A stretch of 23,309 nt of DNA from a virus. The stretch lies in the IMG/VR virus record IMGVR_UViG_3300046411_000628, positions 1-23,309 of that record, one strand, 5' to 3'. Position numbers and translations under genes: made by a program. The notes below the pieces were generated by a model. It was not told where the DNA came from, did not search any database, and worked only from the letters and a program-made list of their open reading frames with translations. Shown one piece after another: positions 326 to 22,384 of the stretch (positions within the stretch are counted from its first letter, which is position 1; each line of letters starts with the position of its first letter).

Positions 326-3300
326 ATGGCAATATATGTAAATGATAATGGTACTTTACGACAAATAAAATTCCTAGCTGTAAATGACAGCGGAACAATT
401 CGTCGTATAAACGAGGTATACGTTAATGATAATAATGCATTAGCGGGGCCGTTTAGCGCCGTTCATCAGACTTCCAGAGATACTGCAACTACAAGAAGTA
501 CTATTTCTGGAGTACATGTAACTGCTTTCAATACCACTACAGGTTTTGATACAGACTATAATACTACTACTACGTTTGACACAAGTAGAACAACAACTTT
601 TGATACAAGTAGAACTACTGATACTAGTAGAACAACAACATTTGATACAACTACAGTATTTGCTACAAATGTAAATACAACTACTGCTTACAATACTACT
701 ACTACCTTTACAACAACAACAACGTTTAATACTACTACTACAACTACAACAACCTTTGCTACGACAACTGCATTTACTACTACAACAACGTTTAATACTA
801 CACAAGGTACTACGACTGCATTTACTACAACTACAGCGTTTACTACAACTACGACGTTTGATACTACTACAAGTACAACAACGCTTTATACAACTACCAC
901 TGCGTTTAATACTACAACAACTTTCAATACTACTATTGCTACAACAACGGCGTATACTACAACTACAACGTTTAATACTGCAAGAGCTACAACAACTGCT
1001 TACAATACTACTACAACTTATACGACAGCTTTTGACACAACAATTGAAACAAGCAGAACAACTGACTTTACAAACAATACATTAAGAGGAACTACTACTA
1101 CATTTGCTACAACTACTGCTTATGAAGATGGAACAACAGTAGCAACAAATACAAGTAGAAGTACAAATACAGCACAAAGTACTTCATTCACTACTACCTT
1201 TGGTACTTCAACGGCTTACGAAGATAACACAACCGTATCTACTAATACTTCTAGAAGTACAAATACAGCACAGTCAACTTCTTATACAACAACATTTGGA
1301 ACTGCAACAGCGTATGTAGACAATACATCATTTGCAACAACAACTACTTATACAACAACGTTTGGTACTACGACTGCATATACAGATACTACTACTTTTG
1401 CTACTTCTACTGCTTATAATACTACTCAAGCAACAAATACAAGTAGAAGTACTGGCTTTACAAATAATACAGGATTTACAAATACTACTACTTTTGCTAC
1501 TTCCACTGCTTACACCACTACTCAAGCAACAAATACAAGTAGAAGCACTGGCTTTACAAATAATACAGGATTTACAAATACTACATCATTTGGCACAAGT
1601 AGAAATACAAATACTTCTAGAACAACAGCCTATGTAGACAATACATCTTTTGGTACTTCAAGAAATACTAATACAAGTAGAACAACCGCATATGTAGACA
1701 ACACATCTTTTGGTACTTCAAGAAATACGAATACATCTAGAACAACCGCATATGTAGACAATACATCATTCGCTACTAACACTTCTAGAAATACTGGATT
1801 TACAAATAGTACTGGGTTTACAAATAATACAAGTAGAGGTACAGGATTTACAAATGGTACTGGTTTTACAAATAATACAAGTAGAAGTACTGGCTTTACA
1901 AATAATACAGGATTTACAAATAATACTAGTAATACAACAACTCAATCTACAGAAAAAGTTGCGGTGTCATTCGGAAACTATACTTACTATTATACAGCAG
2001 ATACTACTTTTGTAGAATCATATGCTACAAATACTTCAAGAAGTACGAACACAAGTAGAAATACATCATTCGCTACTAACACTTCTAGAAATACAAACAC
2101 TAGTAGAAATACCGCATTTGCTACAAACACAAGTAGAAATACAAATACTTCAAGAGGTACTAGTTTTACAAATAATACTTCTCAAGCAACAAATACAAGT
2201 AGAAGTACTGGATTTACAAACTCTACTGCTTATAACACTACTCAAGCAACAAATACAAGTAGAAATACAGGGTTTACAAATTCTACTGCTTACAACACAA
2301 CACAGGCAACAAATACAAGTAGAAGTACTGGCTTTACAAACTCTACTGCTTACGATACTTCTCAAGGAACAAATACAAGCAGAAGTACAAATACAGCTAG
2401 AGACACTGCTTATGTTGATAATACTTCTTTTGGAACGAGTAGAAATACAAATACTTCTCAAGCAACAAATACAAGCAGAAGTACAAATACAGCTAGAGAC
2501 ACTGCTTATGTTGATAATACTTCTTTTGGAACAAGTAGAAGCACAAATACAGCACAAAGTACAAATACAAGTAGAAGCACAAATACAGCACAAAGCACAA
2601 GTAGAAGTACCAACACAACACAGGCAACAAATACAAGTAGAAATACTAATACAGCACAATCAACTAGTAGGACTACTACGTTTGCTACGACTACTGCTTA
2701 TGTTGATAATACAGCCAGAACAACGAACACTGCAAGAAGTACAAATACAGCACAATCTACGAGCAGAACTACAACTTTTGGAACTACTACTGCTTATGTT
2801 GATAATACTGTTAGAACAACAAATACTGCAAGAAGCACAAATACAGCACAAGCTACTAATACTTCTCAGGCTACCAACACTTCTAGAACTACAACTTATG
2901 AAACTTCATATCAAACCTCTAGAACTTCGAGTAGAAGTACAGGAACAAGTAGAGACACAACTACTACATTTAATACTGCAAGGGCAACTGCTACCAGTAG
3001 AGAAACAACAAGTACTTTTGAGACTTCAAGAAGCAGCTTAACATCCAGAGCAACTGCTACAAGTAGAGATACTACTACTACTTATGCAACAACTCAAGGA
3101 ACAATTACTACAAGAAGTACAGCATCTAGTAGAACTACTACAAGTACCTTTAATACCACACAATCTACAGTTACAAGTAGAGCTACAGATACTACTAGAG
3201 ATACAGTTAGTACATTTAATACTACACAAGGTACTCTTACAGATAGAACAACAGGGTCAAGTAGAAGTACTACAAGTACCTTTGATACTAGCAGAGCTAC

Positions 3301-3586
3301 TGATACTAGTAGAACTACAGTATTTGGAACTACTACTACATTTGAAACAGATAGAGTTACTGAGTTTGCAACAGGAAGAACTACAACTACAACTATTGCA
3401 ACAGGTAATATTACAGAAACAAATAGAACTACTGACCATGTAACAACTACAACTTTTGATACAAGTACGATTAAATTCGAGAGAATTACAGCTTCTCAAG
3501 CAGGTACTATATTTGATACAGAAGTAGGTAGTGCCGGTGACTTTGGGTCATCTTATTGGGACGGTTCACAATGGAGTGAATCATAA
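326..3586 (+). CDS. Giant threonine-rich repeat protein, putative tail fibre
   Basis: A 1086-aa protein. Residues 1-45 contain three copies of a VNDxGxxRxI-type unit (VNDNGTLRQI, VNDSGTIRRI, VNDNNAL), a motif I associate with phage fibre N-termini. From about residue 48 to 1035 the protein is almost wholly low-complexity. Thr occupies roughly every second position, and alternate positions hold R, Q, F or Y (for example NTSRST, NTAQST, SFGT, TAYVDN). The modules are 6-residue (xTSRxT) and 4-residue ([SAG]FxT) pieces that combine into 16-, 20-, 22- and 32-residue repeats. A non-repetitive, aromatic-rich island lies near residues 543-567. The last ~45 residues (from FERITASQAG to WSES) form a non-repetitive cap. 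There are no Cys and very few Gly or Pro in the shaft. The two-residue alternation suggests beta structure, so a long beta-solenoid or fibrous shaft is likely. Fibre function is inferred from the ends, length and operon position. The repeats keep other frames and the opposite strand open, but those are not genes. Confidence 0.8.
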   Translation: MAIYVNDNGTLRQIKFLAVNDSGTIRRINEVYVNDNNALAGPFSAVHQTSRDTATTRSTISGVHVTAFNTTTGFDTDYNTTTTFDTSRTTTFDTSRTTDTSRTTTFDTTTVFATNVNTTTAYNTTTTFTTTTTFNTTTTTTTTFATTTAFTTTTTFNTTQGTTTAFTTTTAFTTTTTFDTTTSTTTLYTTTTAFNTTTTFNTTIATTTAYTTTTTFNTARATTTAYNTTTTYTTAFDTTIETSRTTDFTNNTLRGTTTTFATTTAYEDGTTVATNTSRSTNTAQSTSFTTTFGTSTAYEDNTTVSTNTSRSTNTAQSTSYTTTFGTATAYVDNTSFATTTTYTTTFGTTTAYTDTTTFATSTAYNTTQATNTSRSTGFTNNTGFTNTTTFATSTAYTTTQATNTSRSTGFTNNTGFTNTTSFGTSRNTNTSRTTAYVDNTSFGTSRNTNTSRTTAYVDNTSFGTSRNTNTSRTTAYVDNTSFATNTSRNTGFTNSTGFTNNTSRGTGFTNGTGFTNNTSRSTGFTNNTGFTNNTSNTTTQSTEKVAVSFGNYTYYYTADTTFVESYATNTSRSTNTSRNTSFATNTSRNTNTSRNTAFATNTSRNTNTSRGTSFTNNTSQATNTSRSTGFTNSTAYNTTQATNTSRNTGFTNSTAYNTTQATNTSRSTGFTNSTAYDTSQGTNTSRSTNTARDTAYVDNTSFGTSRNTNTSQATNTSRSTNTARDTAYVDNTSFGTSRSTNTAQSTNTSRSTNTAQSTSRSTNTTQATNTSRNTNTAQSTSRTTTFATTTAYVDNTARTTNTARSTNTAQSTSRTTTFGTTTAYVDNTVRTTNTARSTNTAQATNTSQATNTSRTTTYETSYQTSRTSSRSTGTSRDTTTTFNTARATATSRETTSTFETSRSSLTSRATATSRDTTTTYATTQGTITTRSTASSRTTTSTFNTTQSTVTSRATDTTRDTVSTFNTTQGTLTDRTTGSSRSTTSTFDTSRATDTSRTTVFGTTTTFETDRVTEFATGRTTTTTIATGNITETNRTTDHVTTTTFDTSTIKFERITASQAGTIFDTEVGSAGDFGSSYWDGSQWSES
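1103..1294 (+). repeat. Two tandem 96-bp repeats in the fibre gene
   Basis: Two in-frame 32-residue units (residues 260-291 and 292-323) share the order F[AG]T-TAYED-TTV-TNTSRSTNTAQSTS. The third spacing is again 96 bp (TTT at 1103, 1199 and 1295) before the third copy diverges. Silent changes between the copies show they are not a recent exact duplication. Confidence 0.9.
1388..1579 (+). repeat. Two nearly identical 96-bp tandem repeats
   Basis: Units at 1388-1483 and 1484-1579 encode 32 residues each (355-386 and 387-418), containing STAY, TTQAT, NTSRSTGFTN and NTGFTN. They differ at only a few bases, the closest pair in the tract, so this looks like the most recent duplication and a good substrate for slippage or recombination. 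Confidence 0.9.
1583..1762 (+). repeat. Three tandem 60-bp repeats
   Basis: Three 20-residue units (420-439, 440-459, 460-479), each TSFGTSRNTNTSRTTAYVDN, start at 1583, 1643 and 1703. The protein sequence is identical in all three, while the DNA differs at synonymous positions (for example TCA/TCT, GGC/GGT, AGT/TCA). Selection on the protein is therefore visible. Confidence 0.92.
2369..2560 (+). repeat. Two tandem 96-bp repeats
   Basis: Residues 682-713 and 714-745 repeat the order TNTSRSTNTARDTAYVDN then TSFGTSR. Copies begin at 2369 and 2465, again 96 bp apart, with small differences at the end of the second unit. Confidence 0.88.
2663..2854 (+). repeat. Two tandem 96-bp repeats
   Basis: Residues 780-811 and 812-843 repeat the order TSRTTTF-TTTAYVDNT then RTTNTARSTNTAQ. 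Copies begin at 2663 and 2759. This is the fourth place in the gene where the same 96-bp period appears with different module content. Confidence 0.88.
3041..3304 (+). repeat. Four tandem 66-bp repeats near the fibre C-terminus
   Basis: Four 22-residue units (906-927, 928-949, 950-971, 972-993) start at 3041, 3107, 3173 and 3239. Their consensus is T-S/T-R-x-T-x-x-x-R-x-T-x-S/T-T-F/Y-x-T-S/T-Q/R-x-T, and the last residue is I, V, L or D. They are more diverged than the central repeats and form a distinct section of the shaft. Confidence 0.88.
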
Positions 3587-16994: not shown

Positions 16995-16999
16995 GAACT
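16983..16999. promoter_or_regulatory. Palindrome overlapping the -35 box (possible operator)
   Basis: AGTTCTTG-x-CAAGAACT is an 8-bp perfect inverted repeat around a single base. It completely covers the TTGACA of the promoter and ends in the stop codon region of the preceding gene. The position is what a repressor site would show. It could also form a small hairpin, but no T-run follows on the - strand, so a terminator is less likely. No second copy was seen at the glutaredoxin promoter. Confidence 0.5.
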
Positions 17000-17900
17000 A
17001 TTTTCCAGTAGGTTTCGTAATAGACTGTTCAGAAGGTTTTTGCAAACTTTCTGCATATTCACCGCTAATCGTAGCGTGTACTCCTTGTTGAGCCATTTGT
17101 ATCATATTTCCGTGATATACGTAGCTTCCACAATGGCTAAGTTCAATAAATGGGAGAGTCCATATATCAATACCATTCTTTCTAGCTGTCTCACAGAACA
17201 TGTAATCTTCACTTAGATATCTGTTTTGTTCATTTATAATACAGTCAAAGAAAGCTGTTATCTGCTCTCCTGGAGCAAACTCTCCTTCTCTTATATGGTC
17301 TGGAGTATATTTTCTTTCTGGCATTGTTGGTTCAAGAGTTTCAAATACGCTTCTGTGTATCATCATAAATCCTGTACCACCTTCTTGTACTTTTACAGGT
17401 TCATATACTGGAACTTGATTGTTTTCATACTCACCAGGCAAAGGATTAAATACCATATCACCTGCTACTTTTTCTAGTCCCATAGGGTTGTTATCAAAGT
17501 TACCACTTTTTGCAGCATGTAATACTTTTTCCCATGCTATAGTTTTCTTTGGGTAAAGCCCTGTCATTATTTTATACTGTTCTGGATTGTCTGCCATTAA
17601 ATGCCACATATACATTAAATCCATATCTGACCAAGCAATATCGCTATCTATAAATAATAAATAATCACAATCACTTTTTAAAAAATTAGCAACACAATAG
17701 TTTCTTGCTCTAGTAATTAAACTTTCATTGAATAAATAATATAACTGTAAGTGTAGTCCTTGATTCATACAAGTACTGACAGTCTGCATTAGACTTCTAG
17801 TATAAAATCCATGGCACATTCCTCCATACATTGGTGTACCTAAAAACACTTTTGTTTTTCTCATTGCTTCAATATTTAATTGTATTTGTTGTTCACTCAT
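16998..17900 (-). CDS. Glycosyltransferase, phage GT-A type
   Basis: A 300-aa protein. After a short leader it begins KVFLGTPMYGGMCHGF; then SLITRARNYCVANFL precedes FIDSDIAW with the D85-S-D87 metal motif; further on GGTGFMMIHRSVF (a typical acceptor loop) and SEDYMFCE (general-base region) follow. This is the layout of GT2-like enzymes often encoded by large tailed phages. It probably transfers a sugar; the acceptor may be phage DNA, a virion protein or a host glycan. The ATG overlaps the UvsW stop by four bases. Confidence 0.75.
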   Translation of the reverse strand: MSEQQIQLNIEAMRKTKVFLGTPMYGGMCHGFYTRSLMQTVSTCMNQGLHLQLYYLFNESLITRARNYCVANFLKSDCDYLLFIDSDIAWSDMDLMYMWHLMADNPEQYKIMTGLYPKKTIAWEKVLHAAKSGNFDNNPMGLEKVAGDMVFNPLPGEYENNQVPVYEPVKVQEGGTGFMMIHRSVFETLEPTMPERKYTPDHIREGEFAPGEQITAFFDCIINEQNRYLSEDYMFCETARKNGIDIWTLPFIELSHCGSYVYHGNMIQMAQQGVHATISGEYAESLQKPSEQSITKPTGK

Positions 17901-19180
17901 AATACTTTTACCTCATATCCTTCTCTTATATAAAAGCCCATTCTAGCACTTGCTTGACGAGCTGCTGTTTTTCCTTTTAAATTGATATCCACAATTATTG
18001 GTTGCTTCTTACCTTCCTTTTTTCTTATTACCCTACCAATTAACTGTGTTAATAACGGGTCATTATTAACAGGTGTACCTAGTACTAAACAACTTAAATC
18101 ATCTAAAGATATTCCTTCTGAGAATATAGATTGCGTACCAAATAATATATCTTTTTCATCAGTTTTTAACTGGTTTAATGTAGTTTCCCTATCATCAAAG
18201 TCCATATCTCCAGTTATAGATACGGCTCTATCTCCTACTAATCTTGCGCACATTTTCAGTAAGTGTACTCTATCTGATACTACTAAAACTTTGTGTCCTT
18301 CTGCTGCATATTTTGATGCTATCAGAGCAACTGTATCTACATACTCTACATTATGTGTCAAGTCATTAACTCTTTCCGCCCAAGGAGTAAATGAACCATC
18401 TAGAAATCTAATATCAGTTTTATAAATGTGTATACTAGGAATAAGATAATTCTCTCTAGGCGGTCTAAAAAGAGTATTCCCAAAATAGTCTCTAAAAACT
18501 ACGTGCCTACCATCTTTACGCTCTAATGTTCCTGTCAAACCTATCTTATATCTTGTAGGCATTTCATCTACAATTCGTGTAAAAGTAGGACTACTAACAT
18601 GATGCATTTCGTCTAAAATCAATGTTCCAAATTCGTTCTTTATATCGTCCATTTTTCGGTATAAACTTTGAATATTCCCAATAACTATAGGAGCATCAAT
18701 ATTAAAGACACCACCACCTATCACGCCAGCTTTAATTCCAAAACATTTTTCTACCTCTTTTTCCCACTGCGCTCGTAATGATGTTGTATGTGTTACAACT
18801 AGTGTTTTCTGACTAAGTTTACCCGCTATAGAAATACCTGTAAAAGTCTTTCCCCAACTTACCCAAGCGTTAATTATAGCGTTGTCTTGTATGTCGTCAT
18901 ATACAACTTTCTGCGAAGGTCGTAAATCAAACTTAAAGTCTGGAAAGCTCGTTTCCACACTAACACGCTTGTCGACTATTTCGTAATCATCTGGGATTAA
19001 ATCCAATCTTCCCATAGGTATGGAAATCAAATCATCACGAATATACTTAATTGTTTTAAATACTTGTGGAGGGTCTTGAGGCATACGAGGAGGTATAGTA
19101 TAAGTAAGTTCTTTCTCGATAGAATTATGCAAATCTTTAGTGACTTCCATATAGATTCTGTTACTAAGAACTGCTTTCAT
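17897..19180 (-). CDS. uvsW: UvsW-like SF2 DNA helicase
   Basis: A 427-aa SF2 helicase. LRPSQ (86-90) is a Q-type motif; the Walker A is AWVSWGKT (105-112) with Ala and Trp where the family usually has a Gly-rich loop; DEMHH (190-194) is motif II; GLTGT (214-218) is motif III; SEGISLDDLS and QLIGRVIRKK are motifs V and VI. T4 UvsW branch-migrates stalled forks and Holliday junctions and unwinds R-loops that prime replication; this protein is of similar size (T4 UvsW is ~500) and sits near the SSB and recombination genes. Its start overlaps the cytidylyltransferase gene by 17 bases, with GAGG about ten bases upstream. Confidence 0.85.
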   Translation of the reverse strand: MKAVLSNRIYMEVTKDLHNSIEKELTYTIPPRMPQDPPQVFKTIKYIRDDLISIPMGRLDLIPDDYEIVDKRVSVETSFPDFKFDLRPSQKVVYDDIQDNAIINAWVSWGKTFTGISIAGKLSQKTLVVTHTTSLRAQWEKEVEKCFGIKAGVIGGGVFNIDAPIVIGNIQSLYRKMDDIKNEFGTLILDEMHHVSSPTFTRIVDEMPTRYKIGLTGTLERKDGRHVVFRDYFGNTLFRPPRENYLIPSIHIYKTDIRFLDGSFTPWAERVNDLTHNVEYVDTVALIASKYAAEGHKVLVVSDRVHLLKMCARLVGDRAVSITGDMDFDDRETTLNQLKTDEKDILFGTQSIFSEGISLDDLSCLVLGTPVNNDPLLTQLIGRVIRKKEGKKQPIIVDINLKGKTAARQASARMGFYIREGYEVKVL

Positions 19181-19562
19181 TTATCTTATTCCTCAAATTA
19201 GTACTAGAAAAAGAGTGTTGTCTACTTGTATACCAAACTTCATGCAGCCCTTTTCCTGTAAATTCTTTTTGTGTATAATCTTCTCCTACGAATCTTATAT
19301 GTATTTCAGTAGCCTCTAATAAATCAAGTAGACTTTGTTCCGTATCATAAGGAATAATCTCATCAATATATTTCACTGCCCTTAGTTGTATATATCTTTC
19401 AAATACAGACTGCACTGGTTTATTTTTATCCTGTCTATCAATGCTAGGGTCTGTTTGTAATCCAACTATTAGATAATCGCAATTCTCCTTTGCTTCTTTA
19501 AGCATTACTATATGCCCTGCGTGTAGTAAATCAAAACAACCACAAGTAAATCCTATTCTCAT
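19164..19562 (-). CDS. Cytidylyltransferase-like nucleotidyltransferase
   Basis: A 132-aa protein. RIGFTCGCFDLLHAGH with H14-A-G-H17 is the nucleotide-binding motif, and HSFSSTNLRNKI near the C-terminus matches the ISSTxLR motif that closes over the phosphate. Length fits the single-domain glycerol-3-phosphate / sugar-phosphate cytidylyltransferases (TagD, RfaE C-domain type). It would couple CTP to an unknown phosphate to make a CDP-activated unit. The ATG is set by the 4-base overlap with the asparagine synthetase-radical-SAM stop (ATGA); an upstream frame start would lie deep inside that gene. The substrate cannot be read from sequence. Confidence 0.8.
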   Translation of the reverse strand: MRIGFTCGCFDLLHAGHIVMLKEAKENCDYLIVGLQTDPSIDRQDKNKPVQSVFERYIQLRAVKYIDEIIPYDTEQSLLDLLEATEIHIRFVGEDYTQKEFTGKGLHEVWYTSRQHSFSSTNLRNKINESSS

Positions 19563-22135
19563 AATCCGTATGCCTCTGCCACTTCTGGTATGTAATCTCT
19601 TATACTCATATCTCTCCATTTATCTAATGTTCTTAATTTATTTTTTAGTGATTCTACTTGACTACTATCGTGAGCAGTATTAGGAATACCATGCCAGTTA
19701 GATATTAAGTGTTTATATTCATCTGGAAAATTAGTTATACACATGTCAGCTGGCTCCATACATTGTGTAATATTAACTTTAATATTTTCTTTCTTTGCCC
19801 ATTGCTCTAGTTCTAAATAATAAGGAGCGCTAAGCACACTTTGTAAAGAAGCTATTTGTACTTCTGCAAACTTTTTATATTTGTTTATATTTTTCTCCAT
19901 AATAGTCCAATCAGACCCACTTCTAACATACTTTGCCTTCTCGCCAATAACATCTACGGATACTAATATTAGTAGATTTGAAAATCTTTTTAATTGTTTT
20001 ACTACTGCAGGATTCCATATTGTTGCATTTGTAGTAATTTCAATCTCTACATCAGAAGGAAGTTTAGTTAATAAATAAGCCAAGTGCTTTACCATCATAG
20101 GCTCACCACCTGTTATTTCTATTCTTCTAACATCATGTTTAAGTATTTTGTTTAAATTGTCTTCTGTTATCCAATTATTTATTTCTGGTGTTATATCTAA
20201 ATAATGTATTTTATTATTTTCATGTTCTATTGCTTCCTTCATAATAGAACTACTAGAGCGAGGCCAACAACTTATACATTTTAAATTACAAGCATTGCCC
20301 AAAGCTAAATCAAAATGTGTAACTCCTTCTCCAGGGTCTGCCCACATTTTATTTATTCTCCACTTATTCAAACCATAAGGACTAGTGCTTAAAAACCTTT
20401 TACTAGTCATACCTATATCTTCTTTTACTTTGCAATTTTCACAAAACTTATGATATCTCATACTTGCCAAATCTTCTTTTGCTTGTATTACATCAGGAGT
20501 ATTTTTATATTCTTCTACTGTCATATCTGCTATATTATATTTAGTATCATCTTTACTTATACAACAAAATCTATACTTACCATCTGTGTCTACTTTTACT
20601 CCATGGTCTAACCAAGCGCATGAAGTCATACAAAAACTATTTAAAAGTCTTAAGTTTTCTTCTTTCCAATCTGCTTGTACCTTCCTATGGTTATTATCCC
20701 AAGGACTAGACCATCCTACTTTAGTTTTTCTTTCTTTTATATGGGCAGGTAAGTAGTGTCCTAAGGCTTCTCTTAACACATACTTGTAAGTGCCTGTTTC
20801 ATAGTCTATGTGTGGTTTAAATTTTTGTACACCTGCTTGTCTAAATATGTATCTAGCAAAGTTTTGTCCTAAAAATACAGGTCTTGATTCCATTCCAAAC
20901 ATACCACAAGTTTGGTCAGCTGCTAAAACATTCTGCTCAGAAGTTACTAAAAGGTCAAAAAATAATCCATTGTTAAATGTATCTGTTTTTGACCATATTC
21001 TTTTTGGTATCCACTCTTTGTGTTGTTTTAACCCGAAGTTTACTGTGTCATTATCATAGCCAATATTAAATCTTTTAGCATGATGAGTATAGCCAGTAAA
21101 AAATTCGTCTGCACTATCTCCTGTTAAAATTACTTTGCAACCATCTTCGGACGCAGTCTTACACATTAAATATCTAGGCGCTTGTCTATTCTTATCTACC
21201 CATGAAGTGTGCGTATTATTTACCCACATATTACCATAAGCATTTACATCCTCTTTCTTCAGAGTTACTACTTTATAGGGAATGTTCCACTCTTTACAAG
21301 TTTTTATAGCTAAATCTTTCTCACCCATAAAGCCTTTATGAGTATGATATTCTCCTTCAATATCTTCATAACCACAGATATAAGCAGTCAAGTCTAGTCC
21401 CATGTCTTTTACAACGGATAAAACAAATGTACTGTCTAGTCCTCCACTTAAAAATATACCTGTCTTTTGTTTATTATTTGCTACTTTTCTCATAGAAGTT
21501 ACAAGTTTATCTTCTAGTTCAGGAATATTCATAGGCTCAGATTTTATACTGTAGTAATCCCACATATTTTTCTGACTTATCTTTTTAGTTTTAATATTGT
21601 AAGTTATTACTTGTCCTGGTGCTACTTTCTTTACATTTTTATAAGGACTTAAATGTCCTGTCCATATTGGATTTCTATCAAAATGTTTCCATTTATCCAT
21701 ATCAACTTCTTTACTAAAAATACTTCTTAAACTTGTAGATGCTGTAAATTCTTTATCATCTAGTTTATACCATAAAGGCTTCGCTCCAAAATGGTCTCTT
21801 GCAATTGTAATTTCATCATCTTTGTAATAAGCAAAAGAGCCATGCCAATCTGCAAACTCAATAAATTTAAACCCATAAGTCTCATATCCATCAGCTAAGA
21901 ACTTAGTGTCATTCGCAATATTGGAATCATACATTTCTCCATTAAATACTAGATGATTACCTTTCTTAGTTTCGTAAGGCTGTACTTGATGTTCTCCATT
22001 TATATCTAAGAGTACATGCCCCATAGCTATACGACTATCATTCCAATAACTTACATCATCAGGCCCTCTAAATCTCTGGGCTTCTGTCATAGGCTTTATT
22101 CTATCTACTTCAGTTGTTACTACAAATCCGCACAT
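19559..22135 (-). CDS. Asparagine synthetase (glutamine-hydrolysing) fused to a radical-SAM domain
   Basis: An 858-aa single frame. Residues 1-~190 are a class II glutamine amidotransferase with catalytic C2, RGPDD (23-27), NGE (65-67) and DHFGAKPLWY (114-123). Residues ~205-490 are an AsnB synthetase with the PP-loop SGGLDS (230-235) and GDSADE (339-344). Residues ~500-590 hold Cys at 502, 506, 524, 525, 565 and 568 in a layout like an Fe-S cluster accessory (SPASM/twitch-like) domain. Residues ~605-800 are a radical-SAM core with C616-NLK-C620-IS-C623 and GGEP (676-679). The first half would amidate a carboxyl group using glutamine and ATP; the second would catalyse radical chemistry with S-adenosylmethionine. 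The gene abuts the gene before it and overlaps the cytidylyltransferase by 4 bases. No frame break is seen. Each half is clear; the joint substrate is unknown. Confidence 0.88.
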   Translation of the reverse strand: MCGFVVTTEVDRIKPMTEAQRFRGPDDVSYWNDSRIAMGHVLLDINGEHQVQPYETKKGNHLVFNGEMYDSNIANDTKFLADGYETYGFKFIEFADWHGSFAYYKDDEITIARDHFGAKPLWYKLDDKEFTASTSLRSIFSKEVDMDKWKHFDRNPIWTGHLSPYKNVKKVAPGQVITYNIKTKKISQKNMWDYYSIKSEPMNIPELEDKLVTSMRKVANNKQKTGIFLSGGLDSTFVLSVVKDMGLDLTAYICGYEDIEGEYHTHKGFMGEKDLAIKTCKEWNIPYKVVTLKKEDVNAYGNMWVNNTHTSWVDKNRQAPRYLMCKTASEDGCKVILTGDSADEFFTGYTHHAKRFNIGYDNDTVNFGLKQHKEWIPKRIWSKTDTFNNGLFFDLLVTSEQNVLAADQTCGMFGMESRPVFLGQNFARYIFRQAGVQKFKPHIDYETGTYKYVLREALGHYLPAHIKERKTKVGWSSPWDNNHRKVQADWKEENLRLLNSFCMTSCAWLDHGVKVDTDGKYRFCCISKDDTKYNIADMTVEEYKNTPDVIQAKEDLASMRYHKFCENCKVKEDIGMTSKRFLSTSPYGLNKWRINKMWADPGEGVTHFDLALGNACNLKCISCWPRSSSSIMKEAIEHENNKIHYLDITPEINNWITEDNLNKILKHDVRRIEITGGEPMMVKHLAYLLTKLPSDVEIEITTNATIWNPAVVKQLKRFSNLLILVSVDVIGEKAKYVRSGSDWTIMEKNINKYKKFAEVQIASLQSVLSAPYYLELEQWAKKENIKVNITQCMEPADMCITNFPDEYKHLISNWHGIPNTAHDSSQVESLKNKLRTLDKWRDMSIRDYIPEVAEAYGL

Positions 22136-22384
22136 CTATTCTACTCGAAACCAATCGATAATTGTATCTTCTCTTATATCTGCCCATCTGCCGAACTCTA
22201 CATCAAACATAAGTATTCTACCACCTAGTTTATCTCCATCATTTAACGCACGTGCATCCATACCCTTAGTATGTTCAGGTACTAGAGTCATTTCTCTTTG
22301 TTTTGTTTCGCCTGTTCTTAAGTCTTCGTACTTAACTAGACAAATCCCCTTCTCCAGTTTCTTCACTAATTTTTCTAAATTCAT
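22136..22384 (-). CDS. Small phage protein, DUF2693-like
   Basis: An 82-aa protein. After a short Lys-rich N-terminus it has EKGICLVKYEDLRTGE, REMTLVPEH and ends with ILMFDVEFGRWADIREDTII, a layout like DUF2693 proteins in which a cysteine- or KOW-like strand is followed by an FD-x-WR-x-R-x-D-x-I C-terminal motif. The function of that family is unknown. AAGGA lies six bases before the ATG, so the 53-base overlap with the preceding gene is real. Its stop is directly followed by the AsnB-radical-SAM start (TAGATG). Confidence 0.5.
   Translation of the reverse strand: MNLEKLVKKLEKGICLVKYEDLRTGETKQREMTLVPEHTKGMDARALNDGDKLGGRILMFDVEFGRWADIREDTIIDWFRVE

Follow-up and report, generated by a model that had tools for sequence, protein, structure and literature searches.

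An asparagine synthetase-like amidotransferase fused to an N-twitch radical-SAM enzyme in a marine phage lineage

Can a single phage gene encode both a glutamine-dependent amidotransferase and a radical-SAM enzyme, and if so, on what would the product act? The question is raised by one gene of the window (i.e. the whole stretch of DNA analysed, 23,309 nt), a 23-kb virus record. The original prediction, made from the letters of the sequence, had described a complete glutamine amidotransferase/AsnB module and a complete radical-SAM core in one 858-residue frame at 19559-22135. This frame was confirmed. Its strand, unstated in the prediction, is the minus strand; read from 22135 to 19559 it comprises 858 uninterrupted codons, a length with a probability of ~8e-29 by chance at the base composition of the window. 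Pfam searches of the 858-aa protein returned GATase_6, Asn_synthase (residues 206-495) and Radical_SAM (613-755), each above its cut-off. Both modules look complete, as had been claimed, on the basis of Pfam and NCBIfam domains, catalytic motifs and confident predicted folds (pLDDT 91.0 for residues 1–499 and 88.4 for the radical-SAM half, each half being modelled apart from the other). Beyond what had been described, the radical-SAM half also contains an N-terminal twitch/SPASM-type auxiliary cluster domain. A fusion in one frame, with two modules that look complete, is therefore real. The features of the gene and its neighbours, all on the minus strand, are as follows.

22136..22384, minus: small protein, conserved left flank
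19559..22135, minus: fused gene, AS-like amidotransferase plus N-twitch radical SAM; 858 aa, stop included
21551..22135, minus: class II glutamine amidotransferase (Ntn) domain, residues 1-195; C2, N65, G66, E67 and D76 invariant
20651..21520, minus: Asn_synthase-type ATP-pyrophosphatase domain, residues 206-495; Pfam, fold match to 1ct9
21428..21448, minus: PP-loop SGGLDST, residues 230-236; S230, G231, G232, D234, S235 and T236 invariant
20621..20641, minus: fusion junction NSFCMTS, residues 499-505; no linker, natural amidotransferase C-terminus
20396..20620, minus: N-terminal twitch (auxiliary Fe-S) domain, residues 506-580; C506, C565 and C568 invariant
19871..20299, minus: radical SAM core, residues 613-755; Pfam
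20267..20290, minus: CxxxCxxC motif CNLKCISC, residues 616-623; C616, C620 and C623 invariant in 46 homologues
19164..19562, minus: heptose-1-phosphate adenylyltransferase-like nucleotidyltransferase; its ATG overlaps the fusion stop (ATGA)
17897..19180, minus: UvsW-like helicase, conserved right flank
16998..17900, minus: glycosyltransferase-like protein (matches Anp1 weakly), part of the conserved block

The same fusion gene was found in two further IMG/VR contigs (3300017728_000224 and 3300017735_001110) with a single nucleotide difference (S844N), and an assembly or sequencing error is therefore ruled out as the source of the fusion. Because the three contigs look like one phage species, the two further copies do not speak for wide conservation; the second contig with the fusion encodes a DNA polymerase that shares 44–46% identity with its counterparts in Vibrio, Aeromonas and related phages. 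The original prediction had called the combination unfamiliar, and the searches agree: no other fusion was present among 15 matches in isolated phages, nor among the best 80 sequences ranked against the full-length protein, drawn from at least 284 radical-SAM and 207 amidotransferase relatives in IMG/VR, and none is reported in the titles and abstracts of the open-access papers searched. The pairing of an amidotransferase with an N-twitch radical-SAM enzyme is a new combination of two known families, specific, on the collections searched, to one marine-phage species or lineage.

The amidotransferase half (residues 1–~499) is a member of the asparagine synthetase (AS)-like group. Its predicted fold (residues 2–499) matched E. 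coli asparagine synthetase B (1ct9) with a Z-score of 37.9 over 422 residues, and it carries PF00733 with a class II GATase domain, an N-terminal Cys, Asn-Gly-Glu, Asp, SGGxDS and the whole fold; these elements, together with DE...Y, are common to E. coli AsnB, TsnB9, beta-lactam synthetase, TsrC and PesC. When 32 viral sequences were aligned with E. coli AsnB, every one of them had kept the PP-loop motif as well as the Cys, Asn, Gly, Glu and Asp of the glutaminase site. Unlike the members of this group, the window protein is fused to a radical-SAM module, is about 20% identical in sequence and does not match the aspartate-site residues of a true asparagine synthetase (E348, D384 and R387). 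Based on sequence alignment at this low identity, E. coli E348 corresponds to D340 and D384 to N402, changes shared by 32/32 viral homologues, while R387 corresponds to A405 in the fusion and to Ala or Thr in 30/32. The position of the glutaminase Arg49 of E. coli is a gap in 32/32 sequences of the MAFFT alignment, in a loop where such low identity makes alignment difficult. In human asparagine synthetase, activity depends on E364, the equivalent of E. coli E348 (PMC6748925). Furthermore, the score against the TIGR01536 model for glutamine-hydrolyzing asparagine synthetase (162.4 bits) fell below the cut-off of 267.1. Since all 32 viral homologues differ from true asparagine synthetases at aspartate-linked positions, a plain asparagine synthetase appears unlikely, and the half probably uses a carboxylate acceptor other than free aspartate. 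Other acceptors are well documented for AS-like enzymes, some of which amidate peptide C-termini or form nitriles there (PMC13060819). Thus, of the original label, the AS-like fold and motifs stand, but the name asparagine synthetase probably narrows it too far.

The radical-SAM half (~503–858) was assigned to the NCBIfam family N_Twi_rSAM (NF033640), which it matched at residues 505-840 with 200.9 bits (cut-off 170), and with 204.8 bits when searched alone. It shares with that family the N-terminal twitch Cys set and the CxxxCxxC motif, and all six cysteines listed above are invariant across 46 radical-SAM homologues. Members of NF033640 are usually stand-alone proteins of about 330-460 aa, whereas the window form makes up the C-terminal half of a protein that begins with an amidotransferase. 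Structural comparisons were less specific with respect to substrate. The top Foldseek matches were the twitch/SPASM peptide enzymes SkfB, anSME and SuiB, but in VIA-align radical-SAM enzymes of peptides, sugars and nucleotides tied at a Z-score of about 12 with no preference for a substrate class, the peptide enzymes being level with BlsE, NifB, viperin and MoaA.

The origin of the fusion can be followed in the gene order of sister phages. An alignment-guided scan yielded 207 amidotransferase relatives, the best 80 of which were kept. In about 60 contigs the genes follow one order: a small protein, the amidotransferase, usually a heptose-type nucleotidyltransferase (77–90% identical), a UvsW-like helicase, a glycosyltransferase and an ssb-like gene. 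The sister contigs are genome fragments. Their amidotransferase (phrog_16728-like, about 502 aa) is 50-60% identical to that of the window and has the same position and gene order, yet stands alone without a radical-SAM half, and is followed directly by the nucleotidyltransferase (in most) or the UvsW-like gene. Two adjacent genes in close relatives, which would have pointed to a split counterpart of the fusion, are ruled out, as only the amidotransferase is found there; no N-twitch radical-SAM gene was present within 8 kb of any other amidotransferase locus examined, and no amidotransferase within 8 kb of the free-standing radical-SAM loci examined. A C-terminal extension of ~45 residues, absent elsewhere, was observed in the closest stand-alone amidotransferases (L054, L055 and L058; about 60% identity).

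At the junction, the amidotransferase half stops where its free-standing relatives stop ('ENLRLLNSF' versus 'EDLEYLTVL' and 'QDLDFLDSL', each of the latter two followed by a stop codon), and Met503 lies one residue ahead of the start position of free-standing radical-SAM proteins, with no apparent Shine-Dalgarno-like sequence upstream. In sister phages a few bases separate the stop of the amidotransferase from the start of the nucleotidyltransferase gene, and in the window it is the radical-SAM stop that overlaps this start (ATGA); the radical-SAM module therefore sits exactly in that junction. We infer that the module arrived by horizontal transfer: a marine-phage N-twitch radical-SAM gene may have entered a conserved phage gene for an AS-like amidotransferase at its stop codon and then fused with it in frame, which would have given a bifunctional enzyme. 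No close donor was found among the viral relatives retrieved.

Free-standing relatives of the radical-SAM half were abundant in other viral contigs, where they are separate genes (33–42% identity) with up to seven per locus. In 77/77 viral loci (L132-L210, e.g. L178, L044) the gene after the N-twitch one encodes a kinase-like protein of 150 aa, and multicopy Asp/Asn beta-hydroxylases, in some cases with a Trp halogenase, lie nearby. These sets of separate genes, each with a kinase-like gene after it, differ from the window, where the module is fused to the amidotransferase. Homology of the window nucleotidyltransferase to the small gene after free-standing radical-SAM genes was considered and rejected, the latter being kinase-like. 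Comparable gene sets have been described as radical-SAM cassettes in marine T4-like phages (PMC7029224; PMC5332604), although the subfamily in those papers may differ; one such genome has 12 radical-SAM genes (PMC5332604), and in pelagimyophages the cassettes lie in a glycosyltransferase-rich host-recognition region, the glycosyltransferases of which have been proposed to modify the O-chain (PMC7029224).

A scan of bacteria gave six distant matches to the radical-SAM half and none to the amidotransferase half. Members above the NF033640 cut-off were found in 2/398 genomes of one phylum and 1/385 of one class, are more distant from the window module than its viral relatives, and in 3/3 loci lie among sugar or polysaccharide genes. 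Two of these loci (L293 and L296) contain glycosyltransferase 2 and NAD-dependent epimerase genes. The third (L292, proteobacterial) has four N_Twi_rSAM members in a row, one of which is itself a fusion: an 840-aa protein (L292:8582-11101) with Wzt (ABC_tran plus Wzt_C) as its first half and an N-twitch radical-SAM module as its C-terminal half, in an O-antigen operon with a Wzm-type permease, RmlD, RmlC, a WbsX glycosyltransferase and a TylF-type methyltransferase. This protein resembles that of the window in having the same radical-SAM family as its C-terminal half and a sugar context, but differs in its partner (an O-antigen export ATPase), its chromosomal location and its lineage.

A second pairing was noted in some sister phages, which carry a different radical-SAM gene with a C-terminal SPASM domain. 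In five contigs (G005, G007, G008, G009 and G013) this gene adjoins a QueC-like PP-loop ATPase, adjacency in some of the five being inferred from positions or near-identity and several of the contigs being near-identical. The pairing of a radical enzyme with an ATP-pyrophosphatase therefore recurs in this phage group in another form. Loci L271, L272 and L273 show this arrangement.

What, then, would the fused enzyme do? A surface-glycan role is suggested because of the nucleotidyltransferase and glycosyltransferase neighbours, the three bacterial sugar loci and the pelagimyophage cassettes (PMC7029224). This context favours a sugar or glycan over a peptide or nucleotide substrate, and our tentative first choice, to which we give slightly less than an even chance, is a lineage-specific bifunctional enzyme that would tailor a surface-glycan precursor. 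Counting against it, the Asp/Asn beta-hydroxylase, Trp halogenase and kinase-like clusters of the closest viral radical-SAM genes also fit a peptide, the structure search does not discriminate, the glutaminase Arg49 position is a gap in the alignment of the homologues, the bacterial loci number only three and the fusion is known from a single species. Our second choice, unlikely though far from negligible, is tailoring of a peptide or protein in the manner of RiPP pathways: the amidotransferase would amidate a carboxylate on a ribosomal peptide or on a virion protein, and the radical-SAM half would modify that same chain. The peptide C-terminal chemistry of AS-like enzymes (PMC13060819), the best Foldseek matches and the company of hydroxylases and the halogenase are all in keeping with a peptide, but the VIA-align tie and the three bacterial sugar loci argue in the other direction, and Pfam recognised neither a precursor peptide gene nor a leader-binding domain in the window.

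We regard it as distinctly unlikely that the two halves are independent enzymes tethered incidentally through loss of a stop codon, each with its own job. The many viruses in which relatives of either half occur without the other within 8 kb, the absence of a linker, the Met kept at the radical-SAM start place and the restriction to one species are what such an accident might leave; against it are the exact placement of the junction, the frame kept in three contigs, the lack of an apparent Shine-Dalgarno-like sequence upstream of Met503 and the recurrence of a radical-SAM/SPASM and QueC-like ATPase pairing in five sister contigs. Hypermodification of DNA or nucleotides is improbable: in its favour, the genes around the fusion include helicase, ssb-like, nuclease, RNR and polymerase genes, and the block holds a glycosyltransferase, but no thymidylate-synthase-type hydroxymethylase was found in ten sister contigs, although these may be incomplete. 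Least probable of all is asparagine supply, in which the first half would serve phage protein synthesis as a normal asparagine synthetase and the radical-SAM half would be a passenger; the overall AS fold and Pfam membership agree with it, yet the TIGR01536 score (162 against 267) and the aspartate-site changes in all homologues weigh against it.

Under the surface-glycan reading, the amidotransferase half would release ammonia from glutamine, adenylate a non-aspartate carboxylate and form an amide, and the radical-SAM half would cleave SAM at its [4Fe-4S] cluster and, with the auxiliary cluster in the twitch domain, carry out radical chemistry. With less certainty, both halves may act on the same or consecutive surface-glycan intermediates, e.g. 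a uronic-acid sugar, which the neighbouring nucleotidyltransferase and glycosyltransferase might then activate and transfer, so that the host surface would be changed against other phages or the virion decorated. That both activities share one substrate, as the original prediction suggested, is plausible, as a guess from the fusion, although each half has many free-standing viral relatives with no such partner nearby and the fusion is seen in one lineage. The fuller proposal, in which one polypeptide couples ATP-dependent amidation of a carboxylate to radical-SAM chemistry and a single surface-glycan (or peptide) intermediate undergoes both, yielding an undescribed modification that the phage carries to alter the cell or virion surface, is possible, but we consider it doubtful.

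Natural fusions often mark enzymes with a common intermediate, and the fusion protein is therefore a compact object for biochemistry. The N-twitch radical-SAM family is common in marine phage contigs and is without an assigned function; the phage fusion points to a chemistry that accompanies it, the bacterial Wzt fusion to a pathway, surface polysaccharide, and both together give a testable proposal for the family.

Elsewhere in the window, positions 326-3586 encode a 1086-aa protein that consists almost entirely of short Thr/Ser-rich repeats (TTTTF, NTSRSTG, TAYVDNT) and has no Pfam match. It is followed by several glycosyltransferase-like genes, one of them sialyltransferase-like (GT29), and is a candidate glycosylated fibre.
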